Source of the DNA: a virus
Virus record (IMG/VR): IMGVR_UViG_3300023175_001523
Coordinates: 1 to 37,093 of that record
Length of the DNA stretch: 37,093 bases
Reading direction: 5' to 3' (one strand)
The position numbers and the translations under genes are program-made. Numbering within the stretch: the first letter of the stretch is position 1; every line of letters starts with the position of its first letter. Below the pieces are notes generated by a model. That model saw nothing but the letters and a program-made list of their open reading frames with translations. It ran no database searches and was not told where the DNA came from. Below, one piece after another: positions 1 through 16,705 of this stretch.

Positions 1-1117
1 CAAATCCTAAGTCAGTTAGGTATTGTTGTAGTTCTTTAATAGCATCTACTTCGTCTGCATCATTAGCAAGACCGCCTTTACCTGAACTAGCAAATGCTTC
101 TAGGCTACCTGCTGTTTCGCCGCCTTCATCGCCGCCTTCTTCGCCGCCTTCTTCGCCGCCTTCTTCGCCACCTTCTTCACCAGCTTCACTTGGTGGACGC
201 TCAACACCTACACCACCAACTGTGCCATAAGTAACATTATTTGGAATCTTACTCCAGTCTGGATTACCGTCGGCGTCTAGATATTCTTCAGGAATTTCAT
301 CACCGTTGTTGATTTGCGGTAAGTTTCCTTCTTCACCAGGTGCGTCTGCACTGTCAGTTCCTGTTGCAGTTGCGCCAGCAGCGGGAAGATCTGGAGCATT
401 TCTAATTGCTTGTCTTGCTGCCGCAGTGTTTGGTTCACTTAAAATGTTTCCGTCTATAAGTGCATTAATGTCTGCTATTACATTTCTTAATTCTTCTTGT
501 TCTGCTGCTGATAACGCTTCAGAAACAAATGCTTCTAATAGGTTGTATTCTTTTAAATAACCACGTAATGATGTTGGAACACTTTCGTTCATTCTTCCAA
601 TTAGGTCATTATATTTACGAATAAGTTCATCTAATTTTTGTGCGGCTGCATTACGATCTTGTTCGTTTGCTACTTCAAGTTCTGTGCCGTCACTTAATCT
701 AATCTTTCCGTCGTCGGTTGGAGTAGGCTCTGATGTATTTCTATTGTCTGGAGCTGCTGCTGTTGTAGCGCCACCATCTGCATCAGTGTTAGCCATGTAA
801 CTTGCATCACCTTGATCTTCTTCATCTGGATCGTACGGATTACCGTCAGCGTCTACTTCTTGAGCTCCACGTCCGTCACTGTGAGCAAGGAATGCTTGCA
901 AACGATCATCGTTCATGTAGTAAACTTTTACAACATCGTCTCTGCTATAGTTGTCACCACCGTTGCGTAAACCTGTAAAAAGTTTAAATGAATCGTCTCT
1001 TTTAATATTAAAATTAGTTAACGAACCAGTGTCTTGTACTCTACGTTCAGCTTTAATTTCAACTGCTTCGTTTAATTGTACACTGTCAAGTGTGTTTAGT
1101 AGTTTTCTAAAATCCAT
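1..1117 (-). CDS. Candidate packaged virion protein with acidic Gly/Glu linker (C-terminus outside window)
   Basis: The reading frame starts at an ATG at 1117-1115 behind a GGAGG ribosome site and runs off the left edge, so only the first ~372 residues are seen. The N-terminus is MDFRKLLNTLDSVQLNE followed by Ala, which contains the L-x-E cleavage tripeptide of T4-type prohead proteases. The middle is low-complexity and rich in Asp, Ala and Pro. A run of GGEE repeats (12-base DNA repeats) follows, and the last visible residues (DAIKELQQYLTDLGF) resemble the start of a peptidoglycan-binding repeat. The start overlaps the stop of the upstream gene (TGATG), so it belongs to the operon extending to 6458. 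Function unknown. A virion-associated, possibly cell-wall-binding protein is an inference from the leader and the final helix. Confidence 0.75.
   Translation of the reverse strand, partial: MDFRKLLNTLDSVQLNEAVEIKAERRVQDTGSLTNFNIKRDDSFKLFTGLRNGGDNYSRDDVVKVYYMNDDRLQAFLAHSDGRGAQEVDADGNPYDPDEEDQGDASYMANTDADGGATTAAAPDNRNTSEPTPTDDGKIRLSDGTELEVANEQDRNAAAQKLDELIRKYNDLIGRMNESVPTSLRGYLKEYNLLEAFVSEALSAAEQEELRNVIADINALIDGNILSEPNTAAARQAIRNAPDLPAAGATATGTDSADAPGEEGNLPQINNGDEIPEEYLDADGNPDWSKIPNNVTYGTVGGVGVERPPSEAGEEGGEEGGEEGGEEGGDEGGETAGSLEAFASSGKGGLANDADEVDAIKELQQYLTDLGF
119..178. repeat. Five tandem 12-base repeats encoding Gly-Gly-Glu-Glu linker
   Basis: Five consecutive 12-base units of the form gccgccttcttc, the first and last with one mismatch, lie inside the partial gene at the left edge. 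On the coding strand they encode GGEE or GGDE units, which form a flexible acidic linker. They are much more GC-rich than their surroundings. Copy number in such arrays can change by slippage. Confidence 0.85.
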
Positions 1118-1470
1118 CACTTACCTCCGGTAACTTTTTGAAGTTTGTGTGTTAGACCTTCTTTGTAAGCAACCATATCGTCTGGAGTAATTTGCGCCTC
1201 TGGTTGATCACTAAATTTTGTTTCGTAGTCTAAATGATGATATACTGAACTAACATAGTCACCTGCTTTGGTAATCTTTGATTGTACCCAACCTTCTAAG
1301 CCTTCTTGTTCGGATACATTTTTAAGCATATCGTGCAGTTTAATAGCATATTTTGCTATTTTGTATAGCTCTGCACGAGCCATCTGTACTTCGTGATCTG
1401 CTTCGGCTCTACCTGCTAGGTCTGCAAGGCCTTCGTTGACACGAGAATTTTTGAATTCTGATTTGCGCAT
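1117..1470 (-). CDS. Small helical phage protein of unknown function, candidate packaged protein
   Basis: A 117-residue, mostly helical, charged protein with no membrane segment. It starts MRKSEFKNSRVNE followed by Gly, close to the leader pattern of its operon neighbours but with Val in place of Leu/Ile before x-E. The core (about residues 28-95) includes ARAELYKIAKYAIKLHDML and EGLEGWVQSKITKAGDYV. From memory, similar helical segments occur in other T4-like marine phages, sometimes inside larger structural proteins, but I cannot name a family. A late promoter (1508-1514) lies 38 bases upstream of the ATG and a GGAG ribosome site precedes it, so this is the first gene of a late sub-operon that continues into the left-edge gene. 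Confidence 0.8.
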   Translation of the reverse strand: MRKSEFKNSRVNEGLADLAGRAEADHEVQMARAELYKIAKYAIKLHDMLKNVSEQEGLEGWVQSKITKAGDYVSSVYHHLDYETKFSDQPEAQITPDDMVAYKEGLTHKLQKVTGGK

Positions 1471-1507
1471 TAATTTACTCCAAATTAAGTTATAACTTTA
1501 TTTGTAG

Positions 1508-1514
1508 TATTTAT
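1508..1514 (-). promoter_or_regulatory. T4-like late promoter core ATAAATA
   Basis: The minus strand reads GATAAATAC inside the 3' end of the preceding gene. By T4 late-promoter spacing, transcription would start near 1502 and give a 32-base leader before the ATG at 1470. Confidence 0.6.
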
Positions 1515-1915
1515 CTCTTAATCGTCTTACCGCCCATTAAATTGTCATCAACATCTAATGCGTTTGCGGCAGTTCCGTCTGCGTTTTTATGTTGTGGTGC
1601 TACAGGAATACCATTTTTATCTTTTTTGATTTTTTGTTTTGCTGCTGGAGGATTAGCAACTGAAGCAATATTACCTGCACTTGTGCCGCCTGCTGATGCA
1701 TCTTCATTAATACCTGCTTGCACCATTGTTATTGCTTGTTTAATATAACGTGGTCTTACGTGTAGTTCTTGTTCAACTTTAGAAATAATTTCATCTTCAG
1801 GCATACCTTGTTTTAGTAATTCCTTAACCATTGGTATAACATCGTTTTTCATATCTGCTGGTTTGTCTGAACTAAACCAATCTAAAAAGCCTTCATCTAA
1901 TTCTTGTATTTTCAT
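1511..1915 (-). CDS. Small protein with LxE leader, candidate packaged protein
   Basis: A 134-residue protein starting MKIQELDE followed by GFLDWFSS. The leader carries two overlapping candidate protease sites (I-Q-E at 3-5, L-D-E at 6-8). Residues ~22-70 are predicted helical (MVKELLKQGMPEDEIISKV and RPRYIKQAITMVQAG), like a small helix-turn-helix or UBA-like bundle. The C-terminal half is low-complexity, rich in Ala, Asn and Lys. The ATG overlaps the stop of the 553-residue gene by ATGA, so translation is probably coupled. No enzymatic motif is visible. Function unknown. Packaging into the head is inferred from the leader shared with its neighbours. Confidence 0.8.
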   Translation of the reverse strand: MKIQELDEGFLDWFSSDKPADMKNDVIPMVKELLKQGMPEDEIISKVEQELHVRPRYIKQAITMVQAGINEDASAGGTSAGNIASVANPPAAKQKIKKDKNGIPVAPQHKNADGTAANALDVDDNLMGGKTIKR

Positions 1916-3573
1916 TTGTTTCTCCCTGCTTTCATATTAGCGCACCAGTGATACATTTTAGCACGTTCGCCGCTGCTATTACTTGCCTTTTTCCTTAGTT
2001 CACTTACACTTCCATCACAACTAGCACCTGAACGGGCTACACGCCCTGGACGACTGTTACCACTAACTTTACCGTCAGCAAAGTTTTCGCTTATCATTGC
2101 TAGGAATTCTTTGTGTTTAGATCTAAAGTATTTCTTTGCTTTCTCTGGATCTTCTTTATACATTCTATACCATGCTTTGAATTGAGGATCGCTGTTAAGA
2201 GCTGTCTTAACCCAATCAATAATTGATTCGTCTACTGGCTCTTGCATGTGCTGTTGTATGTTTTTAGCAGTACGTTCAAATTTATGATCTTTGTGTTTAA
2301 AGCCATAACCGCCTGCTGCTTCCCAACTGTTAATATTTACACCATAATCGTCAATTAGTATGTTTGGTGTACCATCTTGTTGTGTAGCATACTTTGCTTT
2401 ATCGTGTGTAATAATAACATCATCTGGTGGAAAGAAACTAAGATTTTTTTCAACCCATTCTCTTTTATGAGGTTCTGAATTAGGATCGTCAGGCAGAGGT
2501 GAACTAAGAATTTTGTATGATCCTTTTACTTCTTTAATTAAATTAAGTAATTGTTTAGCATTATTTGTTAATGGTAAGTTAAGCCAAAAATCTTCAGTTT
2601 GTCTTATTTTGTCAAGTGCCTGCGGAATTTGTTCTTTGCCAATATCGGACCAGTGATCTACATTCATTAGTTTAGCCCAAGAGCCAAAGAAATCTGCAAG
2701 TACACCATCCATATCAACATAGATTTCTGTAGCACTTGCTATTTCGCCTAATGCTTCTTTGATTTCTACAAACTTTAAATGATCATAGTATAATGGATCT
2801 TCTTTGATATGATCCATAGCAATTTTTAATGCTAGTTTACGATCATTAGTGTGTTCCATTTCTACTTCAACACCCATTGCTAATTGTCTTTGTAGTTCAC
2901 TGTCACTAATACTTTCGTTTTTATTGCGTCCTTGACAGTGGGCACGTTGACTAAAGCCTCTTGGGTTATTACAGTTAATAGAGCGTTTATATTTTTCACT
3001 CCATTTCTCGTCAATTATTTGTACAGACTCTGCAAACAACTGCGGATTTTTATCAGCCCAACGTCTTAATAAAACGCCTGCCATTGCATTTGCTTCATTC
3101 TCGTCTGGACTTCCGTCTGAACCGTCTAATTCTTCCTTTTCTTCACGCTGTTTACAATGTACTAATTCGTGTGCAAGTGTACGCATTGTGTCCATTTGAT
3201 GCCTACGGTCGTAACTTACAGTAATGCTTTCATCGTATGTATCAAAGTATCCAAACGTTCTGTCAAGCTCTTTGCCTGTCATCGTAATTTTAGGAAACTT
3301 TTGTATACCTAATGTGTCTACACAAAAACGTGCAAATTGATTATAGTTGTCTCTAGTTCTTTGATCAACACTTTCTTCAAGAACGCCTAAGTTAAACAAT
3401 ACGTTTGTGCTTTTGCCTTTGACTTTAGTGCTTAGTGTAGGAGGATGTCCATCTTTATCTACATTAAAACCAAACTTTTTTGCTTCAATAGGAATTTGTC
3501 CTACACCTACATCAACTGTAGTGTTAACACCTTTTACTATGCGACCATCTTCGTTTAGTTCATGTAATCTCAT
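1912..3573 (-). CDS. Multidomain HExxH metallopeptidase - Cys module - HAD 5'(3')-nucleotidase fusion, candidate packaged enzyme
   Basis: A 553-residue modular protein. The leader MRLHELNE contains L-H-E and L-N-E. An N-terminal domain of unknown function (~10-65) is followed by a zinc peptidase-like domain (~70-180) with HELVH at 135-139 and a downstream ENEANAMAG as the likely third ligand region. A Cys module (C201 and C213, pattern CNNPRGFSQRAHC) follows. A helical segment ~225-270 (MGVEVEMEHT, ALKIAMDH) resembles a small phage domain I recall as DUF5661. Next is a HAD-type domain (~282-440) starting VDMDGVLADF, as in 5'(3')-deoxyribonucleotidases, with LIDDYGVNINSW as the later acidic motif. 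The last module has C519 and C544 (SGASCDGSV, YHWCANMKAGR). Several L/I-x-E tripeptides fall at domain borders (LEE ~65-67, IDE ~187-189, LGE ~275-277). Both neighbours overlap by ATGA. Domain calls are motif-based; substrates are unknown. Confidence 0.8.
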   Translation of the reverse strand: MRLHELNEDGRIVKGVNTTVDVGVGQIPIEAKKFGFNVDKDGHPPTLSTKVKGKSTNVLFNLGVLEESVDQRTRDNYNQFARFCVDTLGIQKFPKITMTGKELDRTFGYFDTYDESITVSYDRRHQMDTMRTLAHELVHCKQREEKEELDGSDGSPDENEANAMAGVLLRRWADKNPQLFAESVQIIDEKWSEKYKRSINCNNPRGFSQRAHCQGRNKNESISDSELQRQLAMGVEVEMEHTNDRKLALKIAMDHIKEDPLYYDHLKFVEIKEALGEIASATEIYVDMDGVLADFFGSWAKLMNVDHWSDIGKEQIPQALDKIRQTEDFWLNLPLTNNAKQLLNLIKEVKGSYKILSSPLPDDPNSEPHKREWVEKNLSFFPPDDVIITHDKAKYATQQDGTPNILIDDYGVNINSWEAAGGYGFKHKDHKFERTAKNIQQHMQEPVDESIIDWVKTALNSDPQFKAWYRMYKEDPEKAKKYFRSKHKEFLAMISENFADGKVSGNSRPGRVARSGASCDGSVSELRKKASNSSGERAKMYHWCANMKAGRNK

Positions 3574-3863
3574 CTGTTTCTTCTAAATCTATTTCTAAGT
3601 CTCGGATTTTGAGTTTGCATACTTTTTTGTATGTCTTTGTTTACTTGGTTTGGATCTATTCCTGCGGCTCTACTTAAACTGTCGGCATCGGCTTGGGTTT
3701 GATCAACCTTGTCCTGCATACCTTTGCCTACAACATTCATTCTGTCTACCATACCTGAATCAGTTGTTTTACTTTTTAGCAATGCGGCTTGTTGTTGTTT
3801 TCTTAGAGCTACCTGTCTAGCTGTCATTGTAGGTGCATCTTCTAATATTTCATACATTTTCAT
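3570..3863 (-). CDS. Small basic Gln-rich protein with LxE leader
   Basis: A 97-residue protein beginning MKMYEILE then DAP, where I-L-E fits a T4-type prohead protease site after residue 8. The remainder is hydrophilic, rich in Gln, Lys and Asp, probably helical (RQVALRKQQQAALLKSK), and ends in a strongly basic tail (RLRNRFRRNR) that could contact DNA. It overlaps both neighbouring genes by ATGA. No known family recognised. In size, charge and leader it resembles T4-style internal head proteins, but there is no obvious sequence similarity to them. Confidence 0.75.
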   Translation of the reverse strand: MKMYEILEDAPTMTARQVALRKQQQAALLKSKTTDSGMVDRMNVVGKGMQDKVDQTQADADSLSRAAGIDPNQVNKDIQKSMQTQNPRLRNRFRRNR

Positions 3864-4072
3864 TTCTTGCGTCCTCTAAACTGCTCTGGAAAGCCTAACC
3901 AATATGGACGACTAAACCAAAGTTCGAACCATTCTTTATCACCTGCTCTAATATTGCGAGCCTTTTCAATTTCTCTTTTTTCTGTACCAGTGTGCGAAAT
4001 GTTTTCTTGGTACGGTGTAAGACCTTTGAACTCGTTAATACCTGCAAGTCTGCGTAAATCGTCTAGGTCCAT
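3860..4072 (-). CDS. Small protein with LxE leader and aromatic C-terminal motif
   Basis: A 70-residue protein starting MDLDDLRRLAGINE then FKG, with I-N-E as candidate protease site at 12-14. The C-terminal part has a dense aromatic stretch (KEWFELWFSRPYWLGFPEQF). I recall similar EWF-LWFS-PY stretches in other marine phages, but no function. There is no membrane segment. The ATG sits two bases after the TAA of the nucleotidyltransferase gene. Function unknown. Confidence 0.7.
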   Translation of the reverse strand: MDLDDLRRLAGINEFKGLTPYQENISHTGTEKREIEKARNIRAGDKEWFELWFSRPYWLGFPEQFRGRKK

Positions 4073-4073
4073 A

Positions 4074-5561
4074 TTAACCTCTAGATTGATTTAAACTAGC
4101 CATAATGTCAGCTGGAACTTCATTTGCACTTACTTCAACACGATCAGTTCTGCTATTATGTTTCCAATAAGTTTCTTTGGATTGTCCATTTGCGTCTTTA
4201 GTAACTTCTAACTTATATATACCGGCAGTGTAAACATCTTTTGTAGAACCGTCTGCGTTTTTACTTCTATTAACATCGCCAAAACCGTATTGCGCATCGC
4301 CAGCATCTAACGAGTTGCCATCCTTGTCAAAACGCTTTGTAACTTTTAATCCGCCGTTATTATATTTTACTGTAATAACTCCGGTCTTAAGATTATGTGT
4401 TTGCGATATACCGCCCATCGCAGGTGAACGCCATTGCGAAGGCTTACCGGCAGCGTCCCATAAAAATGTACCGTCGGCGTTACTAAGAGTCATTCCTAGT
4501 TTTGTTTGTCTTGCTATAGCACCATCACCTAAATCGCCTTCTTGCTGCGGCATCTCTGGAAACTGTGGAACTGGCACCGGGTCAATCTTTTCAGGACCTG
4601 CATCTGCCTCACGCATTTTCTTTCTTTTGCTTTTACACGCTTCTAATGCATGTACAATATGTTCGCTTGAGATTTGGAAACGGCTTCCTCTTGCAGTAAG
4701 TTCCTTGCCTACAATCATTTTAAGCCATTCTGCAAGTTGATCAATATCGTCAGTTGCAGCAATCTTATCAGCAATTAAACTAATAATGTGCGAGCGTAAA
4801 CGTCCCTGATCTATAACTAAATTGCTTTCGTTAGTTTTGTTATTATGTTGTTTCCAGGCAGTAGCATATAATACTTCTTCCCAGTCAGCACCATAACGCT
4901 TTTTAAATTCTTCTTTGCGATCTTTAATCCACTTCTCCATACCAGGAGGTGCGTCTTCTGCGACCACTTCTTCTTTATCTTTGATTCCCATACCTTGTCT
5001 AACTGCTGCAAACATTTCCTCAGCAACTTCTGGGCGAGGTACACCGTTAGTAAATGATTCTAGATCATTGTCAGCAGCCGCTTGACGCATTTTACTTGCA
5101 CTCATACCTTCTGCACCATCTGCATCTGGATCACGCTCGCCTGCACTTACAACTTCAATTGAATCAAAAGTATAGCCAATCTTGCCTGACTTATCTGGCT
5201 TACCATTATAATCGTTAAATAATTTTTTAAAGCCTTCTACTCTATCACTTCCTGCTACATAGATAATATCAGTATAACCTAGATTTTGTAGCATAACCAT
5301 CATGTCCATTGGTGTACGAACGTCTGGATGACCTATAGTAATTTCAGGAAAGAAGAATTTTGCATAGCGCAATTTATCAGTAAAGGGTAAAGGATCTGTT
5401 TTAGGTTTTTGTGACTGACTAAGAAACACATAGTGATCACCGTTGTGTGACTTTAGTGCTTCCACTAACTTTTGGTGACCTATAGTAGGAGGATTCATAC
5501 GTCCAAATGCTACTACTGCTGTTCGCTTCTGTGGCGCTTCAAAGAGTTGTCTAAGTTTCAC
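4074..5561 (-). CDS. Cytidylyltransferase/NMN-adenylyltransferase-like fusion protein, candidate packaged enzyme
   Basis: A 495-residue protein starting at GTG (5561-5559) overlapping the upstream stop as GTGA, with an AAGGGG ribosome site. After the leader MKLRQLFE (L-F-E, then Ala), residues ~12-190 form a nucleotidyltransferase fold. GRMNPPTIGH (20-29) carries the HxGH-type nucleotide-binding motif in the form TIGH, and SASKMR (154-159) matches the second phosphate-binding motif. This family joins a nucleotide to a phosphorylated substrate such as NMN, but the substrate cannot be read here. A linker ~203-245 (PPGMEKWIKDRKEEFKKRYG, then WEEVLYATAWK) looks like a separate small phage module. 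Helical residues ~250-325 and a repetitive beta-rich C-terminus (~340-490, many DANG/NADGS turns) follow. The first His of HxGH is Thr, as in some NMNAT-like and phage members. Confidence 0.8.
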   Translation of the reverse strand: MKLRQLFEAPQKRTAVVAFGRMNPPTIGHQKLVEALKSHNGDHYVFLSQSQKPKTDPLPFTDKLRYAKFFFPEITIGHPDVRTPMDMMVMLQNLGYTDIIYVAGSDRVEGFKKLFNDYNGKPDKSGKIGYTFDSIEVVSAGERDPDADGAEGMSASKMRQAAADNDLESFTNGVPRPEVAEEMFAAVRQGMGIKDKEEVVAEDAPPGMEKWIKDRKEEFKKRYGADWEEVLYATAWKQHNNKTNESNLVIDQGRLRSHIISLIADKIAATDDIDQLAEWLKMIVGKELTARGSRFQISSEHIVHALEACKSKRKKMREADAGPEKIDPVPVPQFPEMPQQEGDLGDGAIARQTKLGMTLSNADGTFLWDAAGKPSQWRSPAMGGISQTHNLKTGVITVKYNNGGLKVTKRFDKDGNSLDAGDAQYGFGDVNRSKNADGSTKDVYTAGIYKLEVTKDANGQSKETYWKHNSRTDRVEVSANEVPADIMASLNQSRG

Positions 5562-5893
5562 TTATATTCCCCTTTTTTAATTTCTTCTAATTCTTCTGTA
5601 GTAATTCTGTTTAGAATATTTACTCTATCATCGCTAGTATAAAGCTCTGATGGTGCTCTTGCAATATTAAATTTTGTACAGTAACCTTCCATTGCTTGAT
5701 CAACTACAGAACCTAACAATGATTCTGGGTCAACGTTGCCACCATTACGGTGTGTGTCAGCCATCTTTGCAATAGCCGGAAAGTATTTTTTACGATAAAA
5801 TATAGGGTCATTGCGCATGTATACAATAGTATCATCTACAATGTCAAAGTTTGTAAGACTGTCGTTATGTTGTGTAAATTCATTTATCTTCAT
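5558..5893 (-). CDS. Conserved-looking hypothetical protein starting MKINEF
   Basis: A 111-residue protein. The frame is open further upstream, but that extension overlaps the conserved Cys-rich end of the 187-residue gene in another frame. The ATG at 5893-5891, one base after that gene's stop, gives MKINEFTQHN, which again contains an I-x-E tripeptide at residues 3-5. The core (VYMRNDPIFYRKKYFPAIAK, residues ~27-46) is rich in aromatic and basic residues, and the C-terminal half is helical and charged. No enzyme motif recognised. It overlaps the following nucleotidyltransferase gene by GTGA. Confidence 0.78.
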   Translation of the reverse strand: MKINEFTQHNDSLTNFDIVDDTIVYMRNDPIFYRKKYFPAIAKMADTHRNGGNVDPESLLGSVVDQAMEGYCTKFNIARAPSELYTSDDRVNILNRITTEELEEIKKGEYK

Positions 5894-5894
5894 A

Positions 5895-6458
5895 TTACCA
5901 CTTCCTACATGACCAGTAACGTGCCTTCCAACGAGGTCCCGGATTATCGCAATTATGTCTTGCTCTAAAACTTCTACGTCTTGCTGGATTAGATTTTTTA
6001 ATACGCATTTTTTTGTCACCAAAGTTTACTTTAACAACATTACCGTTTGGCTTGCGTACATATACTTTAAACTTTTTAACATCGCCTCTTGTAGGTTTGC
6101 CTAGTTTAACTTTACGACCACGGTATTCTGCTTCGTCTAGTTCGTCATCTTCGTTAAACCACATAACTCCATATTCTTCAAAGAAGTCGTCACCGTCATA
6201 TGTTTCTTCATCTATTTCTTCTAAGTCAGTTGATACTTCGATATCAAAATCTTCATAACCTTCGTTAAACATATGATCTGCTAAACGATTTACAAATTCA
6301 CTTACAATATCTTCGCCAAGTGCTTGTGGTAACGGAATGTGTATAACAGTAGCATCTTGCTCTGTTTCAAAAATTTCATGATTTGGAAAGACACTTTCGT
6401 TTAAGCCTTCGCTCAATACATCTTGTTTTTCCATTACTATTCTTACAAAATGTTCCAT
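5895..6458 (-). CDS. Acidic protein with C-terminal paired-Cys module
   Basis: A 187-residue protein with an AGGA ribosome site before the ATG. The N-terminus is longer than in its neighbours but includes VLSEGLNE (two L-x-E tripeptides, ~residues 14-21). The centre is very acidic (EEIDEETYDGDDFFEEYG). Residues ~128-187 form a basic module: a beta-rich stretch KFKVYVRKPNGNVVKVNFGD, then RRRSFRARHNC and a terminal ARYWSCRKW, with the Cys pair at 170 and 184. From memory this module is widespread as a C-terminal add-on in T4-like phages and some large viruses. I do not know a demonstrated function; metal or nucleic-acid binding is a guess. First gene of the leader-bearing operon. Confidence 0.8.
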   Translation of the reverse strand: MEHFVRIVMEKQDVLSEGLNESVFPNHEIFETEQDATVIHIPLPQALGEDIVSEFVNRLADHMFNEGYEDFDIEVSTDLEEIDEETYDGDDFFEEYGVMWFNEDDELDEAEYRGRKVKLGKPTRGDVKKFKVYVRKPNGNVVKVNFGDKKMRIKKSNPARRRSFRARHNCDNPGPRWKARYWSCRKW

Positions 6459-7563: not shown

Positions 7564-8225
7564 GCATTCTTGTTCAGACACACAACTTTATTAATTGAGC
7601 GTATATTGTCAACCATTAGTAGTCTTAACAATGTAATAACCCTGTCGGATTTAGCATAAAAGTACAAATCATCCAATCGTGTCATGCCTTCATTTAAATA
7701 TTCTTCAAGTGTATTACCTAATTTAACGTGTTCCCCGTTATGTGCTAATAACCATTGTGCTGCATCTAAAGGCAATTTGCCACGCAAATACACTCTATAT
7801 TCATAATCTATAGGTCTTTTTAAATATGCATACCCTGGTTCTAAAGGATTTAATCTTTCTTCTGGTTCCCACCATTCGAGTGACTGTCTTAGTCTAGTTG
7901 AAAGATCGTATAACCAAGGTTTATAGGTTGAGTATATTGTTAATTGTTTAAATTGTACTCTTAATCTATATATTCTATGCTTTTTAAGTTCATTGTATAT
8001 TACCTTAGCATCTTCAAAACTTGCTTGACTAATACTCATAGTCCTAAATCTGTGAAGTTGTAAAGGTTCACCGTTTTCGTAAGAAAGCTGAAGGCCATCC
8101 AGCAACTTTCCTACGTGATGTAAACGATTATTTCTGAACTCATTTGCTAAGTCATTTCTACATAATAATTTGTAGGCATACTTATTGTAAAAGAGTTTTT
8201 CAGTTGTTTGCTTCCTCAAATGCAT
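7560..8225 (-). CDS. Hypothetical basic/aromatic phage protein
   Basis: A 221-residue protein from the ATG at 8225 (MHLRKQTTEKLFYNKYAYKL), which follows an AAAGGA purine run. A TTG five codons upstream is less likely. It is rich in Arg, Leu, Tyr and Trp with no membrane segment or catalytic motif. Segments such as YLKRPIDYEYRVYLRGKLPL and a central WWEPEERLNPLEPGY look compact and globular. It overlaps the 3' end of the ClpA-like gene by 26 bases, so its translation is probably coupled to it. I do not recognise the family. Confidence 0.75.
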   Translation of the reverse strand: MHLRKQTTEKLFYNKYAYKLLCRNDLANEFRNNRLHHVGKLLDGLQLSYENGEPLQLHRFRTMSISQASFEDAKVIYNELKKHRIYRLRVQFKQLTIYSTYKPWLYDLSTRLRQSLEWWEPEERLNPLEPGYAYLKRPIDYEYRVYLRGKLPLDAAQWLLAHNGEHVKLGNTLEEYLNEGMTRLDDLYFYAKSDRVITLLRLLMVDNIRSINKVVCLNKNA

Positions 8226-10449
8226 TTTCCTTTGCTTCAACTATTAGATCGTTGTCTACAATTTTGATCTTAACGTGACCACCATTTTTAAGACTACCAA
8301 ATAGTAATTCTTTAGACAAAGGACGTTTAATTTCATTATCAATTACACGTTGCAAAGGACGAGCCCCCATCTTGCTGTCAAAGCCTTTTTCTACTAAGTA
8401 ATCAATGGCACTGTCATCAATTTCAAACTTAACACTACGATCTTTGATCATCGATTTAAGTTCAACTAAGAACTTGCCCACAATCTTGATCATTACTTCT
8501 TTACTTAGTTTTGCAAAAGTAATAGTTGCATCTAGCCTGTTACGGAATTCTGGAGCAAAAAAGTTTTTAAGGTCTGTATCTTCGTAATCTTTTTCGTTAT
8601 CTTCATCAAAGCCAATGCTATTTTTCTCTGCTTCTTTTGCGCCTAAGTTTGTTGTAAGGATAAGAACACTGTTACGTGCATCTGCTTCCTTACCATTTGA
8701 TCCTGTAATCTTACCATTGTCCATAATTTGTAGTAAGATTTGAGAAACATCTGGATGTGCTTTTTCAATCTCATCTAATAGCAATACACACCCTGGATTT
8801 TCTTGTAATTTTTCAATTAGTAAACCACTAGTATCTTCGTGTCCTACGTATCCCGGAGGAGAACCAATCAACTTAGCAACTGAATGCTTCTCTTGATATT
8901 CACTCATATCAAAACGCACAAGTTTTACACCAAGTTCGTTTGCTAGTTGTTTTGCTGTTTCTGTTTTACCTGTACCTGTTGGACCCATAAACACAAAACT
9001 ACCAATCGGTTTAGTTTCATCTTTAAGTCCTGCTTGTGCAATTAAAATCTTATCAACAAGTTTTTCAATTGCTTCGTCTTGTCCAAACACAACACCTTTT
9101 AGGTTATGTTCAAGGTCTTTAAGTCCTGCTGATTCTTTTTGTGCAATCTTATCTACTGGCAGATTTACACTTCTTGCAAGCTCAAACTGAATGTTATCTA
9201 CATCAACAACACGTTCTTCTGCATCTGTGTCTTTCAATTTAAATCTTGCACACGCCTGATCAACTAGATCAATTGCTTTATCAGGAAGTTTTTTATCTGC
9301 TTGATACTTAACACTTAGATCTACTGCTGATTCAATTGCGTCACTTGTAATTTTTGCACCGTGATATGTTTCATAATATTTTGCAATACCTTTTAGGATA
9401 TCAATACTTACATCTCTGCTAGGCTCGTCAACTGTAATACGTTGGAATCGACGCATAAGGGCACGATCCTTTTCAAAGTGTTTACGGTATTCTTCCCAAG
9501 TAGTTGAAGCAACTACTTTAATGTCACCTTTACTTAATGCTGGCTTTAACATATTAGCAAGGTCGTTTGAGTTACTGCCACCGCCTGCACCAGCACCGTT
9601 CATCATGTGTGCTTCGTCAATAAACATAATTGCTTTGCCTTTTTTCTTAAGAGCTGCAATAACTAACTTTAAACGTTCTTCAAAGTCACCACGGTATTTA
9701 GATCCAGCAAGCATGCCGCCGATATCTAGATTAAACACTTCGTACTCTTGTAGAAATTTAGGAACATTATTATTAACAATATTCCATGCAAGTCCTTCTG
9801 CAATAGCAGTTTTACCTACACCTGGATCACCAACAAGGATAGCATTGTTTTTATTGCGTCGGCCTAATGCTAGTGCAATGTTTTCTAGTTCGGTACTACG
9901 TCCAATTACAGGATCAATTTTATTACGTTTTACTTCGTCATTTAGATTGTCTGTAAATGCACGAAGTGCTTTAAGTGCTGCGCCACTAATTTCTTCTTCT
10001 TCGTATGCTGCATCTAGTTCATTGTTAACATAGTCTGCAAAAGAGTCTTTGTTAACGTTTGCTTCTTCTAAGTAGTAGTATGCATAGGATTTTAGTTCAG
10101 CTAAAATACTTAATAGCACATCTGATAATTCAATCTCAGGACGACCTGCAAATAGTACTTGTGTAAATGCTCGATTTAATACACGTTCTACTGCTTGTGT
10201 CTTTTTAGGTTTATATTTGCCGTCTGTTTCAATTACAAGATCAGTACACTTGTCTTTAAGATAATGTTCTAAATTCTTTTTAATAAAATCAGGATCTACG
10301 CCATAACCTTTTAACAAATTGTAAAAAGGTTCAGAACAGAGCATAGCAAATAACAAATGCTCAACGGTCACGTATTCGTGCTTTAGTCTTTTAGCATCCT
10401 TAATTGATTTTTCGAATACTGCCTGTAGTTCTTTGCTTGGTTCAACCAT
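8200..10449 (-). CDS. clpA: ClpA-type AAA+ unfoldase
   Basis: A 749-residue class I Clp ATPase, close to the usual ClpA length (E. coli ~758). An N domain (~1-145, the ClpS/adaptor-binding region in ClpA) is followed by the first AAA+ module with Walker A GDPGVGKT (207-214) and Walker B MFIDEAH (~275-281). The second has Walker A GPTGTGKT (489-496), Walker B LLLDEIEKAH, pore-loop GYVG (~533-536) and arginine-finger region FAPEFRNRLD. Residues 612-614 read IGF, preceded by KNS, at the position of the ClpP-docking IGL/IGF loop of ClpA/ClpX. No long ClpB-type middle domain is present. The protein should unfold substrates and could feed them to host ClpP; no clpP or clpS is in the window. It overlaps the deformylase gene by 8 bases. 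The reading frame is intact. Confidence 0.93.
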   Translation of the reverse strand: MVEPSKELQAVFEKSIKDAKRLKHEYVTVEHLLFAMLCSEPFYNLLKGYGVDPDFIKKNLEHYLKDKCTDLVIETDGKYKPKKTQAVERVLNRAFTQVLFAGRPEIELSDVLLSILAELKSYAYYYLEEANVNKDSFADYVNNELDAAYEEEEISGAALKALRAFTDNLNDEVKRNKIDPVIGRSTELENIALALGRRNKNNAILVGDPGVGKTAIAEGLAWNIVNNNVPKFLQEYEVFNLDIGGMLAGSKYRGDFEERLKLVIAALKKKGKAIMFIDEAHMMNGAGAGGGSNSNDLANMLKPALSKGDIKVVASTTWEEYRKHFEKDRALMRRFQRITVDEPSRDVSIDILKGIAKYYETYHGAKITSDAIESAVDLSVKYQADKKLPDKAIDLVDQACARFKLKDTDAEERVVDVDNIQFELARSVNLPVDKIAQKESAGLKDLEHNLKGVVFGQDEAIEKLVDKILIAQAGLKDETKPIGSFVFMGPTGTGKTETAKQLANELGVKLVRFDMSEYQEKHSVAKLIGSPPGYVGHEDTSGLLIEKLQENPGCVLLLDEIEKAHPDVSQILLQIMDNGKITGSNGKEADARNSVLILTTNLGAKEAEKNSIGFDEDNEKDYEDTDLKNFFAPEFRNRLDATITFAKLSKEVMIKIVGKFLVELKSMIKDRSVKFEIDDSAIDYLVEKGFDSKMGARPLQRVIDNEIKRPLSKELLFGSLKNGGHVKIKIVDNDLIVEAKENAFEEANN

Positions 10450-12138: not shown

Positions 12139-12419
12139 CACTTTTTCCCCTCTAGTTTAGCAATACGAGCTTCGAGCTCATCTATCTTAGAAGTTATTTT
12201 AGGATACTTTACACGCCAAGCATTTGGATCGTTTTGGAGCCAGGTCCAGCCCCAACGTATTGCTAGATATTCTAGTGTGCGATCAAATTTGCCCACTGCC
12301 CATATTGCCATCTTTGTATCTTTGAACCAAAACAAAAATGCAGCGCCGAATAAAGATCCGACAATGCCTGTATAGATCCAAAGGCGATCACTCGCCATGT
12401 TTTGTATCATTTCCCACAT
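12138..12419 (-). CDS. Small membrane protein with C-terminal coiled coil
   Basis: A 93-residue protein with one membrane segment at ~15-32 (YTGIVGSLFGAAFLFWF). An amphipathic, Trp-rich segment follows (YLAIRWGWTWLQNDPNAW), then a short C-terminal coiled coil (ITSKIDELEARIAKLEGKK). A GAGGGAG-type ribosome site precedes the ATG, and a late promoter core lies at 12446-12452. It sits between the o-spanin and the EF-hand protein, so a lysis or membrane-associated role (holin or antiholin) is plausible. No family recognised. Confidence 0.75.
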   Translation of the reverse strand: MWEMIQNMASDRLWIYTGIVGSLFGAAFLFWFKDTKMAIWAVGKFDRTLEYLAIRWGWTWLQNDPNAWRVKYPKITSKIDELEARIAKLEGKK

Positions 12420-12445
12420 AATAACTCCCTCGTTGTTACTATGTG

Positions 12446-12452
12446 TATTTAT
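12446..12452 (-). promoter_or_regulatory. T4-like late promoter core ATAAATA
   Basis: The minus strand reads AATAAATACAC in the gap after the o-spanin gene. The T4-spaced start is near 12440, giving a 21-base leader with ribosome site before the ATG at 12419. It would drive the two small membrane proteins independently of the endolysin. Confidence 0.65.
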
Positions 12453-12838
12453 TATTTTGCGGGGGTAGTTTCTTCTACGGGCTCGTAGTATTCGCGATAC
12501 TTATCAATGATAAGTTGCTGTTGGATCATATATGCACGGATTTGTGCAAAGTTTTTAGCAAGTGTTTCGTAGTCGTCATCGCTTAAACCAAACAGCACAG
12601 GATCTTTACCTTGCTCTTTCATTTTAGCAAACACTTCTTCTGCGTTTTCGCTATGGATAATAATGAACTTTAGTTCTTCCATTTTAGGAGTTGCAGGGTT
12701 CTGTAAGTTAAGCGGCTCTCGCTTAACCTCTGTGCTAAACACCTGTAATTCCTTAACTGTGCTACAACTAGTAAGGAACGTAGTTAGGGTTAGCAAGACT
12801 AGGACACTCTGAATTGATCTCAGACTTCTTAGTTGCAT
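12452..12838 (-). CDS. o-spanin-like outer-membrane lipoprotein (Rz1 type)
   Basis: A 128-residue protein with a signal peptide and lipobox: a basic N-terminus, hydrophobic VLVLLTLTTFLTSC with the lipidated Cys near residue 25, then STVKEL. The mature part holds a Pro-containing stretch (EPLNLQNPATPKMEEL) and a C-terminal helix (FAQIRAYMIQQQLIIDKYRE). It is longer than Rz1 of lambda (60 residues) but starts inside the 3' end of the i-spanin gene in another frame (71-base overlap), the classic nested Rz/Rz1 arrangement. It would link the outer membrane to the i-spanin in the final lysis step. Confidence 0.82.
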   Translation of the reverse strand: MQLRSLRSIQSVLVLLTLTTFLTSCSTVKELQVFSTEVKREPLNLQNPATPKMEELKFIIIHSENAEEVFAKMKEQGKDPVLFGLSDDDYETLAKNFAQIRAYMIQQQLIIDKYREYYEPVEETTPAK

Positions 12839-13253
12839 TTCTTTCTGCCTCCGTTAATGGTGAGCCCATTGCGATTTCCACGCACCTCATTGCCTTTTTA
12901 CTGGCATTGTTAATAACACGTTCTACTGAACGATCTCTTTCAATAGCAAGTTTACCAATGTCACGTACTTCGCCCTGTGCATTGATTTTATTAAAACGAT
13001 CATCTAGTGCTTTCATTTCATTTTGAAGCGTTTGATTTGCTGCTATTAATTGATCGTTTGCTTCTCTAATAGCAGTAAAGTCTTTGCGTTGCTGTTCTAT
13101 TACTGCTTGTTGTTCAGCGTGTGCTTGTTCTAGTTTTACTTGATTTAATTTTGCTATTTCTAAATCACTCTTAAGAGTTTTTACATACATGAAGCCGCCA
13201 CCCATTGTTGCTAGAGTGACGACAATCATTGCAATTTTAATTGAACCAAACAT
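12768..13253 (-). CDS. i-spanin-like inner-membrane protein (Rz type)
   Basis: A 161-residue protein with an N-terminal membrane anchor (~6-26, IAMIVVTLATMGGGFMYV). A long coiled coil follows (~28-95, rich in Gln, Glu and Lys: EQAHAEQQAVIEQQRKDF), then a periplasmic C-terminal part with Cys residues (MRCVEIAMG, NSECPSL). This is the i-spanin layout. It starts 10 bases after the endolysin stop, and its 3' end contains the start of the o-spanin. Length is close to lambda Rz (153). Confidence 0.85.
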   Translation of the reverse strand: MFGSIKIAMIVVTLATMGGGFMYVKTLKSDLEIAKLNQVKLEQAHAEQQAVIEQQRKDFTAIREANDQLIAANQTLQNEMKALDDRFNKINAQGEVRDIGKLAIERDRSVERVINNASKKAMRCVEIAMGSPLTEAERNATKKSEINSECPSLANPNYVPY

Positions 13254-13263
13254 AGTATTCTAT

Positions 13264-14127
13264 TTAGTCTAATAGTTTCCCTAATGTAGCAGGTCCGGCT
13301 ATACCATCTGCAACCAGTCCGTTAGCCGCTTGCCATTCTTTAAGAGCACGTTCTGTACCTGGGCCAAAGTCGCCATCTGCGCCAATGCCTAATGCTTCTT
13401 GCATCAGTTTAACACCTTCGCCTTTAGCACCTCTGCGTAGTACACCAATTTCATCTAGGTCAAATGAATCATCTTCGTCATCTTCATCAACTTGATGATT
13501 TTCAACTTCTGCACCTAGAGCTTTTAGTGCTTCTTCCCAGTGATGAATACGATCCTCTAGTCCAATGTAACCACCGTTAATACGCTTGGTAAGAGTTTTA
13601 ATATCTCCTGCATCTGAGTATTTGTTTAGGTTATTTGTATCCCAGTAAAATAGTGCTGACTTAAGAGCAACTTCTTTATCTTCTGAAACAATGTCTGGAT
13701 TCTCTAACACTTCTGGTAAATCTGCCCAATCAGCAAATTTAGTATAGTTGTGTCTACCAGTTAATTGAATAGGGCCACGACCCCTAAAACGCCAACCATC
13801 ACCGCTGTCGGTATCACCGTTGTCCATACGATTTGCGTATACCACGTTTGCAATCTTTTCAGGTTGTCTGTGGTATTCTTCTGCATCGCGTCCTGCTCTT
13901 GCAAAGTACTTTCCAAAGACTGCGTTAAGAGCCTTTGCACTATAGTTAAGATTTTCACTGAACACTCTCCATCCACCTGATTCGTGTCCACACTGCGCAA
14001 TAAATGCTGCAATACGCTGTGGAGTGTTAATTTCGTATTCTGGGAATACTTCGTTCATTGCGTCCACCCATCCGTCAGGGTCCGCACAGCGAGGGAACAA
14101 CTCGCTAAATTGATTTGCTGTTAGCAT
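13264..14127 (-). CDS. Endolysin: GH19 glycosidase with C-terminal peptidoglycan-binding domain
   Basis: A 287-residue protein. Residues ~1-205 match the GH19 (chitinase-like) lysozyme fold: AQCGHESGGWRVFSENLNYS carries the likely catalytic Glu residues E49 and E58, and the family motif FRGRGPIQLTGRHNY follows at ~113-127. An acidic linker (~212-226, QVDEDDEDDSFDLDE) leads to a peptidoglycan-binding domain (~228-287) with LRRGAKGEGVKLMQEALG and ADGDFGPGTERALKEWQ. No signal peptide is visible, so export probably depends on a holin. It is followed by spanins and small membrane proteins, forming a complete lysis cassette. Confidence 0.93.
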   Translation of the reverse strand: MLTANQFSELFPRCADPDGWVDAMNEVFPEYEINTPQRIAAFIAQCGHESGGWRVFSENLNYSAKALNAVFGKYFARAGRDAEEYHRQPEKIANVVYANRMDNGDTDSGDGWRFRGRGPIQLTGRHNYTKFADWADLPEVLENPDIVSEDKEVALKSALFYWDTNNLNKYSDAGDIKTLTKRINGGYIGLEDRIHHWEEALKALGAEVENHQVDEDDEDDSFDLDEIGVLRRGAKGEGVKLMQEALGIGADGDFGPGTERALKEWQAANGLVADGIAGPATLGKLLD

Positions 14128-14128
14128 A

Positions 14129-14845
14129 TTACTTCCTTTTGATTACGAGGGCCTTGCCCTGATTTTCAAAGACTAATTTGTCTCCATACTTACTTATATT
14201 GTAATCGCCAATATACTTAGTTAAAAAGAGTATTTCTGGATATGATTCCATTAAGTCAAATTTGCCTTCAATGTTGTCTTTGATGTTTAATACATCACCA
14301 AAATCTATAAATTCAAATACTAAAGAGTCTGCCCATTTTTTCTTTAATGTTAGGGTATTTTCTTTAAGATCAATTAATTCAATAAAACTTTTATTAAAAA
14401 ATTCTTTGTAATTTTCCATTCTAGTTTCATTAACTTTTAAACCATAATCTTCTGGTTTAACAGGAATAGCTGATTCTAAATTTTCTAATGTTGCTTCTTT
14501 TGATCTAAAGTTTTTATAGTATCTAAATTTAAATCTGTCATTACCTGTTAGTTTAGATAATCCGTCAACAATTTCAGTAATTTGACTAGCAATTTTTCTG
14601 TTGCGTTCAATCTCTACAAAAACTCTATATGCGCCGTCACTTTGTTCACCTGCTGTAACATCACTATCTAAGATAAATGCATAACCTCTTTCTAAGAATC
14701 CACTAAGATCTTCGGCTGCTTTCTTATCATTTAGTGTAAAGCTCAGTGTAACAATATCTTCATCTTCACCCATCTTTGATTGATAAGAATCAATTTCAAA
14801 AATATGGTCAACCATGTGTTTTAAATCTTCTGCGTGTAAACTCAT
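14129..14845 (-). CDS. Conserved-looking phage protein of unknown function
   Basis: A 238-residue soluble protein with no membrane segment. Its first half is alpha/beta (MVDHIFEIDSYQSKMGEDED, DIVTLSFTLN, GYAFILDSDVTAGEQSDGAY). The second half is strand-rich and acidic, with FRYYKNFRSKEATLENLESA in the centre and EILFLTKYIGDYNISKYGDK near the end. From memory, similar proteins occur in many T4-like cyanophages without assigned function. The ATG overlaps the stop of the upstream gene (TAATG), and the endolysin starts two bases after this gene ends, so it is probably late. Confidence 0.8.
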   Translation of the reverse strand: MSLHAEDLKHMVDHIFEIDSYQSKMGEDEDIVTLSFTLNDKKAAEDLSGFLERGYAFILDSDVTAGEQSDGAYRVFVEIERNRKIASQITEIVDGLSKLTGNDRFKFRYYKNFRSKEATLENLESAIPVKPEDYGLKVNETRMENYKEFFNKSFIELIDLKENTLTLKKKWADSLVFEFIDFGDVLNIKDNIEGKFDLMESYPEILFLTKYIGDYNISKYGDKLVFENQGKALVIKRK

Positions 14846-15402
14846 TATATTGTCATTCCTTCACCGCCTGCTGCTGCTGGTGCTGCTGCTGCTGGTGCTC
14901 CACCTGCTGCTAAATCATCTGCTGGTTGTGCATCAGTTGGTGCTGCTCCATCTTCTGTTGCTGCTGTAACATCAACATCACGTTGCTCTTGATAGCCTGT
15001 ATAGATATCGACTATAAGTGCTTTAGGCATCATAATTTCTACTAACCAAATTGGAAATCTATCTAACTTACCTTTTTTAGTACCAGGACGGATATCATCA
15101 GCTTTACGGATTTTTCTTGGTTTTAATAAATGTGTTTTTTCAAAGGTTATCTTGCAATCGTAATCTAGCAATCTTTTACCACCCGCAGGGTCTGGCATCT
15201 TATCACGTGGCCACATAAAGGCGCAAGTAACCCAATGTCTGTCAATTACTGGTCCTTTTGCTAATTCGCCATCTTCCCAGTTCTTGTAAACATATAGGTC
15301 TAGTTCGTCTAAAACACGTTCAAAGTCTTTTAAAACTTGGAAACTTGAGTTGTCATCATAGAGTTGCTCTATGTTACTAATAATATCTAATACATCTTGC
15401 AT
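14845..15402 (-). CDS. Hypothetical protein with Ala/Pro/Gly-rich tail
   Basis: A 185-residue protein from the ATG at 15402 (MQDVLDIISNIEQLY), chosen because AGGA lies eight bases upstream. A GTG at 15426 lies at the predicted late transcription start and is unlikely. Residues ~1-140 form a globular part with GPVIDRHWVTCAFMWPRDKM and a positively charged patch (KTHLLKPRKIRKADDIRP). The last ~40 residues are low-complexity Ala/Pro/Gly/Asp. No catalytic motif is evident. A late promoter (15430-15436) gives a ~22-base leader. Confidence 0.8.
   Translation of the reverse strand: MQDVLDIISNIEQLYDDNSSFQVLKDFERVLDELDLYVYKNWEDGELAKGPVIDRHWVTCAFMWPRDKMPDPAGGKRLLDYDCKITFEKTHLLKPRKIRKADDIRPGTKKGKLDRFPIWLVEIMMPKALIVDIYTGYQEQRDVDVTAATEDGAAPTDAQPADDLAAGGAPAAAAPAAAGGEGMTI
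14867..14911. repeat. GCT/GGT trinucleotide low-complexity tract
   Basis: Repeated gctgctgctggt units encode the Ala/Gly/Pro tail of the 185-residue protein. The tract is slippage-prone and may vary between relatives. Confidence 0.75.
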
Positions 15403-15429
15403 TTTATAAGTCCTGTACTTGTACACACT

Positions 15430-15436
15430 TATTTAT
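15430..15436 (-). promoter_or_regulatory. T4-like late promoter core ATAAATA
   Basis: The minus strand reads GCGATAAATAAGTG in the divergent gap before PhoH. The predicted start is near 15424. It would drive the two unknown genes and then the lysis cassette. Confidence 0.65.
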
Positions 15437-15491
15437 CGCTATTTAGATATAACTTACTAGTTTTTGTTTCTGTCTTAGTGGTAAATACTTT

Positions 15492-15527
15492 TGTAGGGCA
15501 AAAGCCCAACAAGGCACAAGTCCTACA
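15492..15527 (+). promoter_or_regulatory. Possible structured leader before phoH-like gene
   Basis: TGTAGG (15492-15497) can pair with CCTACA (15522-15527), while GGGC (15496-15499) can pair with GCCC (15504-15507) around an AAAA loop. The two helices share two G bases and so are partly exclusive. The element lies ~30 bases before the phoH-like start. No known riboswitch was recognised. Confidence 0.3.
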
Positions 15528-15556
15528 TTATTCCATAACTCATAGGAGGACACTTA

Positions 15557-16276
15557 ATGGGTGCTAAAAGGAAACAGCGCAATCGCGCAAATCCAGGCTA
15601 CGACAATGTAGTAAATTTTAACTCTTTTCAAAAGAAACAATCAGTTACAATACTTCCAAGAAACAGACACCAAGAAGAATACGTAGTAAAACTATTAGAC
15701 GATACTAAAGATATTGTATTCGGTGTAGGTCCTGCAGGTACAGGTAAAACGCTATTAGCAGTACAGGTAGCAGTGAAATTGTTTAAAGAAGGCAAAATAG
15801 ACAAAATTATTGTAACAAGGCCGGCAGTTAGTGTAGACGAAGAACTAGGCTTTTTACCAGGAACGCTAGAACAAAAAATGGCGCCTTGGACAAGACCTAT
15901 TTTTGACGTACTACGTGAGTATTTTGATGCTCGTCAAATAGAAGGCATGATTGAAGAAGGCATTATTGAAATTGCTCCACTAGCATATATGCGTGGGCGA
16001 ACATTTAAAGATGCATTTATACTAGCAGACGAAATGCAAAATGCAACACCTAACCAAATGAAGATGCTTCTAACACGATTAGGCGAAGGCTCAATGATGG
16101 CAGTCACAGGCGATCTTGCACAAGCAGATAGGCTTAAGGACAACGGTTTAATTGACTTCACTAAACTGTTAGAAACTAGTAAAACATCACGTTTGGACGT
16201 AGTCCGATTTGAACAAGGAGATATTGAAAGACACGAGGCAGTTAAGGAGGTGTTACAAGTTTACGGCGACGAATAG
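15557..16276 (+). CDS. phoH: PhoH-like P-loop ATPase
   Basis: A 239-residue PhoH-family protein with Walker A GPAGTGKTLLAVQ (~residues 57-69) and Walker B-type ILADEMQNATPNQMK (~154-168), plus the family stretch RPAVSVDEELGFLPG. TAGGAGGAC is a strong ribosome site before the ATG. PhoH is an ATPase/putative RNA helicase-like protein very common in marine phages, with unproven function. It is the only long plus-strand gene between 1 and 35517. It ends exactly beside the convergent dCMP deaminase, and the two stop codons lie in a short palindrome. Confidence 0.95.
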   Translation: MGAKRKQRNRANPGYDNVVNFNSFQKKQSVTILPRNRHQEEYVVKLLDDTKDIVFGVGPAGTGKTLLAVQVAVKLFKEGKIDKIIVTRPAVSVDEELGFLPGTLEQKMAPWTRPIFDVLREYFDARQIEGMIEEGIIEIAPLAYMRGRTFKDAFILADEMQNATPNQMKMLLTRLGEGSMMAVTGDLAQADRLKDNGLIDFTKLLETSKTSRLDVVRFEQGDIERHEAVKEVLQVYGDE

Positions 16277-16289
16277 TTAAACTTTAACT
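16273..16289. terminator. Palindrome at convergent gene ends, possible weak bidirectional terminator
   Basis: TAGTTAAACTTTAACTA spans both stop codons of the convergent phoH-like and dCMP deaminase genes. It is an AT-rich 8-bp palindrome without a flanking U tract, so terminator function is uncertain. Confidence 0.3.
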
Positions 16290-16705
16290 ACTTCAATATC
16301 AGACTTATTTAAAAACTCAATGCCCTGTGTACTACGATAATCATTCTTGTAGTACACAGTGGCTATACCTGACTGGTAAATTAGTTTTGCACAGTCTATA
16401 CAAGGTGAGTGTGTAATAAAGATACTTGCACCTTCACCGCTTTCAGGCGAACGTGCTAGTTTAGCGATTGCGTTAGACTCGGCGTGTAATACTTCTGGTT
16501 TAGATTTTAAGACACCGCTTCCTCCTCCGTCGTGAATAATTTCTTCACAACAGTTGTCCCAACCAGTAGGCATACCATTGTAGCCAATACTAATAATACG
16601 ATCATCCTTTACAACAATCGCCCCTACTTGTAAACGAGTTGCTGAACTTAATTGTGCGAAGCGTTCAGCAACGTCCATATAAGCATCTACAAACTTCTGT
16701 TTCAA
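16277..16705 (-). CDS. dCMP deaminase (deoxycytidylate deaminase)
   Basis: A 142-residue zinc deaminase. HAESNAIAKLA carries the zinc His and catalytic Glu, and SPCIDCAKLIYQSGI the two zinc Cys residues; GYNGMPTGWDNCCEE is typical of dCMP deaminases. It converts dCMP to dUMP, feeding ThyX encoded immediately upstream. Length is slightly short of T4 cd (193). Its ATG overlaps the thyX stop by 4 bases. Assignment as dCMP rather than a related deaminase rests on the motif set and the ThyX context. Confidence 0.92.
   Translation of the reverse strand: MKQKFVDAYMDVAERFAQLSSATRLQVGAIVVKDDRIISIGYNGMPTGWDNCCEEIIHDGGGSGVLKSKPEVLHAESNAIAKLARSPESGEGASIFITHSPCIDCAKLIYQSGIATVYYKNDYRSTQGIEFLNKSDIEVVKV

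Follow-up and report, generated by a model that had tools for sequence, protein, structure and literature searches.

A marine T4-like virus operon with candidate capsid-targeting leaders and predicted polyprotein joints

Gene layout of the operon

The window analyzed here (G000) is the whole of a 37-kb virus fragment, IMG/VR record IMGVR_UViG_3300023175_001523 (37,093 nucleotides), and the subject of this work is an operon whose products begin with leaders resembling the capsid-targeting sequences of phage T4. In T4, the prohead protease gp21 cleaves by the rule L/I-X-E, and the first ten residues of the internal protein IPIII are capsid-targeting (PMC9026906). According to the open reading frames, the operon consists of nine consecutive minus-strand genes at positions 2–6458. 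They are listed below in order of transcription, with the leaders as an earlier interpretation made from the letters alone (the sequence-only reading) had written them; an arrow (↓) marks a cleavage site, which is predicted in the operon proteins.

Gene 1, 5895..6458, minus strand: 187 residues, transcribed first; leader MEHFVRIVMEKQDVLSEGLNE↓, or MEKQDVLSEGLNE↓ from the second ATG
Gene 2, 5558..5893, minus strand: 111 residues; start MKINEF, the weakest leader of the operon (INE at residues 3–5)
Gene 3, 4074..5561, minus strand: 495 residues, GTG start; leader MKLRQLFE↓, a HIGH-type nucleotidyltransferase (cytidylyltransferase/NMNAT-like), then more modules
Leader MKLRQLFE of gene 3, 5538..5561, minus strand: predicted cut after E8
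Gene 4, 3860..4072, minus strand: 70 residues; leader MDLDDLRRLAGINE↓FKG, which includes an RRLAGIN stretch
Gene 5, 3570..3863, minus strand: 97 residues; leader MKMYEILE↓
Gene 6, 1912..3573, minus strand: 553 residues, candidate polyprotein; leader MRLHELNE↓
Gene 7, 1511..1915, minus strand: 134 residues; leader MKIQELDE↓, and an internal AGINE↓DASAGG site before the C-terminal module
Gene 8, 1117..1470, minus strand: 117 residues; leader MRKSEFKNSRVNE↓GLADLAG; carries the GLAD/DHEVQMAR module
Gene 9, 2..1120, minus strand: at least 373 residues, continuing past the window edge; leader MDFRKLLNTLDSVQLNE↓

Most junctions are 4-nucleotide overlaps (ATGA) or gaps of 1–2 nucleotides, with a single 40-nucleotide gap at 1471–1510. 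Gene 1 matched PHROG 7595 (E=4e-11, unknown function) and has homologues in the related contigs G003 and G004; behind its leader lie an inner EEIDE↓ETYDGDDFF module and a basic, Cys-containing C-terminal module. The gene 2 homologues G002_32343 and G004_110777 start with MRLNEF and MVKINEF, respectively. Gene 3 matched PHROG 3041 (E=6e-51), and its predicted fold matched PPAT/NadD structures.

No near-DNA match of the window was found among catalogued phages, and its gene content and order were matched in three longer syntenic contigs, G002 (165 kb), G003 (146 kb) and G004 (135 kb), with identities of up to 67–89% for the shared genes around the operon. The window is likely to be part of a marine T4-like virus of bacteria, with the operon encoding probable head cargo of a T4-like myovirus.

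Leader-type starts are enriched in the operon

To quantify the leaders, [LI]xE was scored within residues 2–18, and the operons in G002, G003 and G004 were delimited by synteny. In the window, the motif occurred in 8/9 operon proteins compared to 4/34 of the rest (Fisher p=2.8e-5), and the looser [LIVM]xE in 9/9 compared to 7/34, which bears out the description of nine tightly packed genes that nearly all carry the motif near the start. The sequence-only reading had also stated that the pattern is confined to the operon; the enrichment held, and total absence elsewhere did not, as the genes at 14129, 19266, 22665 and 35895 carry it, a proportion (4/34) at the background rate. When the four loci were pooled, [LI]xE was present in 34/42 operon proteins and 76/466 others (p=8e-18). 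The excess was limited to the first 17 residues scored (0.81), with later 17-residue bins from residue 19 on giving 0.19, 0.21 and 0.16. Counting each homologous family once left the difference in place (15/17 operon families compared to 43/204 others, p=4e-8), and a leader E at residue 8 was found in 15/42 operon proteins compared to 3/466 others. On each of these counts, the pattern was not equally common in other genes. Across all loci retrieved, the leader seen most often has eight residues and the form M-[KR]-[ILV]-x-[EDQ]-[LIV]-x-E; in an alignment of 26 nucleotidyltransferase homologues of gene 3, M1 and E8 are among the positions that are at least 90% conserved.

Such a pattern might arise merely because the starts are rich in E and L, or through translation coupling where genes overlap, and might have no packaging role. 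There is indeed tight overlap in the operon, and E, K, L and I are frequent near the starts of its proteins. We nevertheless regard this explanation as hardly credible: composition-preserving shuffling of the first 17 residues gave a mean of 10.5 proteins with the motif compared to 34 observed (0/2000 shuffles reached 34), the peak lies at the single position E8, internal joints without a start codon show the same signal, and homologues were found in virions, as described below.

Prohead protease and gp23 in related contigs

G002 and G003, both of which carry the operon, contain genes for portal, core protein, S77 protease, gp22-like scaffold and gp23, arranged as in the T4 head region. Their gp23 proteins have a site of the leader type, YLAE↓ and YLSE↓. 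No S77 or Gp23 match was found in G004, which is a fragment and hence uninformative, and no Peptidase_S78 match in seven related contigs including G001. Among 26 distinct gp23 sequences of the relatives, the expected maturation site (YLAE↓, YLSE↓, WLNE↓, YINE↓ and others) precedes the conserved shell domain. For comparison, the T4 record has SFLTE↓AE in gp23, MLKEQLIAE in gp22 and MAKINELLRE in gp24.

G001, a phage contig of 204,772 bases, also encodes leaders that follow this pattern (MRLRNLFE, MKIFEVTE and MKIHDILE) and the NFADGK module, and the first 41 residues of its protein at 164954–165451 match the PHROG 'internal head protein'. In this contig, neither Peptidase_S77 nor Gp23 was matched, nor were the lineage profiles of the core protein, gp21, gp22 and gp23.

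Through its RRLAGIN stretch, the leader of gene 4 (MDLDDLRRLAGINE) is similar to the C-terminal tail that gp22 has in the relatives (NVVDIRRLAGLN). Among 3420 predicted proteins, the 7-residue pattern was found in 34 distinct leaders, all from the gene 4 family, in 47 gp22 tails and at four internal positions, the last including at least two in operon proteins; T4 gp22 has no RRLAGIN-like tail. This hints that the gene 4 leader may gain entry by mimicking the scaffold, which we treat as suggestive because the motif was defined only after being seen.

Predicted cut sites in the 553-residue protein

The product of gene 6 is arranged as leader, GRIVKG module, M78/IrrE-like metallopeptidase region, CQGR motif and DUF5661, NT5C 5'-nucleotidase, helical stretch and NFADGK/MYHWCANM module. 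DUF5661 and NT5C scored above the Pfam cut-off and Peptidase_M78 below it, and the protein matched PHROG 2643 (E=1e-22). Its AlphaFold model (mean predicted local distance difference test score 73.6, predicted template modelling score 0.42) is confident at about residues 70–200 and 283–440 and in a smaller part near 511–549, with weak stretches between them. The nucleotidase part gave Foldseek matches to human and mouse deoxyribonucleotidases. Among thirteen [LIVM]xE sites, those kept in most homologues are E8, E67, E273/277, E445/449 and E496, giving the following predicted cuts.

3550..3552, minus strand: predicted cut after E8 (HELNE↓DGRI); E in 34/40 aligned homologues
3373..3375, minus strand: predicted cut after E67 (GVLEE↓SVDQ), between the GRIVKG module and the metallopeptidase region; E in 29/30 homologues
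2743..2745, minus strand: predicted cut after E277 (EALGE↓IASATEIYVDMDG), alternatively E273, before the nucleotidase; E277 in 34/41 and E273 in 29/39 homologues
2227..2229, minus strand: predicted cut after E449 (EPVDE↓SIID), or E445, behind the nucleotidase; E449 in 21/34 and E445 in 25/39 homologues
2086..2088, minus strand: predicted cut after E496 (AMISE↓NFADGK), before the C-terminal module; E in 45/45 homologues

The conserved signals sit at predicted module joints, and E67 borders a low-confidence stretch of the model. At E348 and E525, which lie in confidently modelled parts, the signal was present in 2/44 and 6/43 homologues, respectively.

As a metallopeptidase-like region (HELVH) is present in this protein, albeit below the Pfam cut-off, the joints might be cut by the protein itself with no part played by the prohead protease, in the way that autoproteolysis was proposed for DdrB of phage P1 (PMC5512222). 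This is very unlikely, however, given that the sites have the gp21 form (P1 E, P3 L/I/V) seen in the relatives' gp23 and are kept in related proteins that lack the metallopeptidase region, such as G004_107390 and G003_14859.

Modules recur behind leaders and inside fused proteins

The NFADGK/MYHWCANM module was found free behind the leaders MRIFELVE↓, MLVSEITE↓ and MRLRELIKIQE↓ and also inside fused proteins, where the preceding residue (P1) was E in 110/110 distinct internal contexts. In 63 nonredundant internal contexts, P3 was L/I/V/M in 70%, compared to 13–33% for columns further upstream. The GLAD/DHEVQMAR module, which stands behind the leader in gene 8 and is internal in G004 after AVTE↓, had hydrophobic-x-E immediately before it in 7/7 internal contexts. 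Likewise, the C-terminal module of gene 7 occurs free in G004 behind MKIKDVIVNE↓ and internally behind AGINE↓ (window) and SIGE↓ (G003). Modules thus shift between a free form, made of leader and module, and the interior of fused proteins, with the cut signal kept. The sequence-only reading had overlooked this modular arrangement, which is like that of a polyprotein, and had also missed the likeness between one leader and the scaffold tail.

In a scan of N-terminal/internal homology junctions, which is partly biased in that homology alone transfers the site between free and fused forms, the signal was present in 240/390 junctions when the free form has a leader (95 expected) and in 77/304 when it has none (66 expected). 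A stricter test, which compared the register of the sites in N-terminal and internal copies once aligned, was uninformative and was dropped; a matching E is pulled into the alignment, and the test is biased by construction.

That same transfer underlies a further alternative, in which the leaders are genuine and cut and the fused proteins stay whole: the joint signals would be leftovers from the fusion of leader-bearing genes, carried along by homology alone, and the products would act as multidomain cargo that is never cut. Polyvalent proteins of other phages would be the parallel; N4 vRNAP, for example, is packaged whole (PMC5512222). A leftover signal should decay, yet P1 is invariably E before NFADGK even where the upstream sequences are otherwise unrelated, whereas conservation is poor at E348 and E525 of the same family (gene 6). 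We therefore consider this alternative unlikely, though the strongest of the three weighed here.

Leader-bearing proteins in virions of cultured phages

Mass spectrometry of caesium chloride-purified S-CREM2 particles detected a cytidylyltransferase, an S-adenosylmethionine (SAM) hydrolase, an APH/ChoK-like kinase, a Cas9-like nuclease and unknown proteins (PMC10665884). From the gene translations, the first three begin with MKNFSSFLTE↓A, MKDFDSFLEE↓F and VKRFDAFLTE↓E, respectively, and two other virion-detected proteins with MKDLHSFLTE↓Q (gp13) and MQTFSMFFSE↓D (gp136); the gp23 site of this phage is LLTE↓A. The Cas9-like nuclease, gp12 (7704–10313), has RFASFMAE↓A at about residue 25, like the other cargo leaders. 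In S-SCSM1, an NMNAT was likewise detected in the particles (PMC9602691); it starts with MKSFLQFLKE↓A, and its gene lies within a run of five annotated virion-protein genes. Leader-bearing homologues of the gene 3 nucleotidyltransferase are thus present in particles of both phages, which supports packaging. The 69-residue gp93 of S-SCSM1 (41626–41835), annotated as a virion protein, closes with KRTFKEFLEYIE, and this C-terminal stretch looks like a targeting sequence.

A comparable operon (12203–19789) is present in Melnitz, a cultured Kyanoviridae phage of Methylophilales, and includes a leader-bearing nucleotidyltransferase and nucleotidase. Its leaders are MQGFKTFLSE↓, LINFSKYITE↓, MKKFSEIIE↓ (nucleotidyltransferase) and MKSIVEVTSINE↓ (nucleotidase, 19277–19789). 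Melnitz has two nucleotidase paralogues, the second of which (66627–67154) lies outside the cargo operon, has no leader and begins directly with the domain (MMKKERVKMTIYLDMDG).

Interpretation and comparison with known systems

Taken together, the best explanation, to which we assign a probability of roughly three in four, is that the operon encodes head-packaged polyproteins with capsid-targeting leaders, cut by the prohead protease. The leader (about 5–21 residues, mostly 8–17) would act as a capsid-targeting sequence that draws the protein into the prohead core, where the S77 prohead protease would remove it after [L/I/V]-x-E. Several products are strings of modules (nucleotidase, metallopeptidase-like, nucleotidyltransferase and small basic Cys-containing) with a leader-type signal at the joints. 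As the signal at the joints is the same, the protease would probably also separate the modules inside the prohead, and the released pieces would pass into the host together with the DNA. For this virus, packaging of the operon proteins is very probable and removal of the leader almost equally so; injection of the cargo is likely, and cutting at the joints, a well-supported prediction, is somewhat favoured. The proposal of T4-type leaders on capsid-targeted cargo, made by the sequence-only reading, is supported by the enrichment, by the protease and gp23 site of the relatives and by the virion homologues.

Several points weigh against this explanation. The 37-kb window holds no prohead protease or capsid gene, and the gp21-type protease, whose absence from the full genome the sequence-only reading had named as refuting, was found in G002 and G003. 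Among non-structural virion proteins of S-CREM2, [LI]xE was weakly enriched (9/28 compared to 24/165, p=0.03; p=0.13 for [LIVM]xE), and in S-SCSM1 the difference was not significant (5/19 compared to 37/227, p=0.2). Plain [LI]xE was accordingly rejected as a rule for virion presence in these two phages; a tighter T4-like pattern was drawn up after the data had been seen and is not counted as a test. The authors of both papers leave open the co-purification of abundant cell proteins (PMC10665884, PMC9602691). N-terminal peptide data for any member were not found in the literature searched. In addition, roughly one in four NFADGK contexts has a non-hydrophobic P3, and the junction scan is partly biased, as noted above.

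The operon resembles T4 IPI–IPIII and Alt (PMC9026906, PMC3012670) in its short N-terminal leaders ending in [L/I]-x-E, which gp21 cuts in T4, in the unrelated mature parts behind similar leaders, and in the S77 protease and the gp23 site of the same kind, found here in the relatives. It differs in comprising nine genes, in a commonest leader of 8 residues compared to the 10 of IPIII, in fused, modular products that repeat the signal at their joints, and in one leader that resembles the lineage's own scaffold tail, a tail not seen in T4 gp22. No family homologous to IPI–IPIII or Alt was found among the Pfam and PHROGs hits to the mature parts, which is not decisive because T-even internal proteins have little in common beyond the leader (PMC3012670).

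Metallopeptidase and nucleotide-active domains are also found in the multidomain cargo known as polyvalent proteins, which phages and conjugative elements encode and which are presumed to act early in the new host (Iyer et al. 2017, PMC5512222). Such proteins combine several unrelated domains in one polypeptide, as gene 6 does with its metallopeptidase-like region, DUF5661, NT5C and C-terminal module; the accessible part of that description, unlike the present case, includes no prohead-protease signals at joints, no shared leader and no cyanophages. In the giant phages SPN3US and phiKZ, the head ejection proteins are packaged as well, and a relative of gp21 cleaves them after E (A-x-E in SPN3US), but their propeptides are mostly 111–254 residues long, and no comparable domain shuffling around the sites is described in the accessible text (PMC10052503). 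The NMNAT/cytidylyltransferase of S-CREM2 and S-SCSM1 is a homologous leader-bearing enzyme detected in purified particles, whereas leaders, a cleavage rule and an operon-wide pattern go unmentioned in the available portions of those papers (PMC10665884, PMC9602691).

The open-access literature on cyanophages and capsid targeting yielded just reviews and studies of T4 and giant phages. As a basic kind, capsid-targeted internal proteins are already known from T4; the literature searched contained no modular form of them on the scale of an operon. A broader proposal, on which we are evenly divided, is that the prohead protease of marine T4-like phages doubles as a polyprotein-processing enzyme, stripping the entry tag and freeing several enzymes from one chain within the head; because leader and joint are the same signal, modules could be freely swapped between genes, and at least one leader type might copy the scaffold C-terminal tail for entry. 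If this is true, the leader rule would pick out head-carried proteins of marine T4-like phages, mostly labelled hypothetical, and would give a reason for the nucleotidyltransferases in cyanophage particles. Head-packaged polyprotein processing would then become testable in the cultured phages Melnitz, S-CREM2 and S-SCSM1.

Other features of the window and its relatives

A candidate T4-like late promoter before gene 8 (GATAAATAC, 1507–1514) was rejected, as the match count equals the chance expectation. Near the end of the part of gene 9 inside the window (100–190), there is a Gly-Glu repeat, EEGGEEGGEEGG. In G003, a run of genes at about 56000–66500 has CxxxCxxC-like N-terminal motifs, suggesting that it may encode several radical-SAM proteins.

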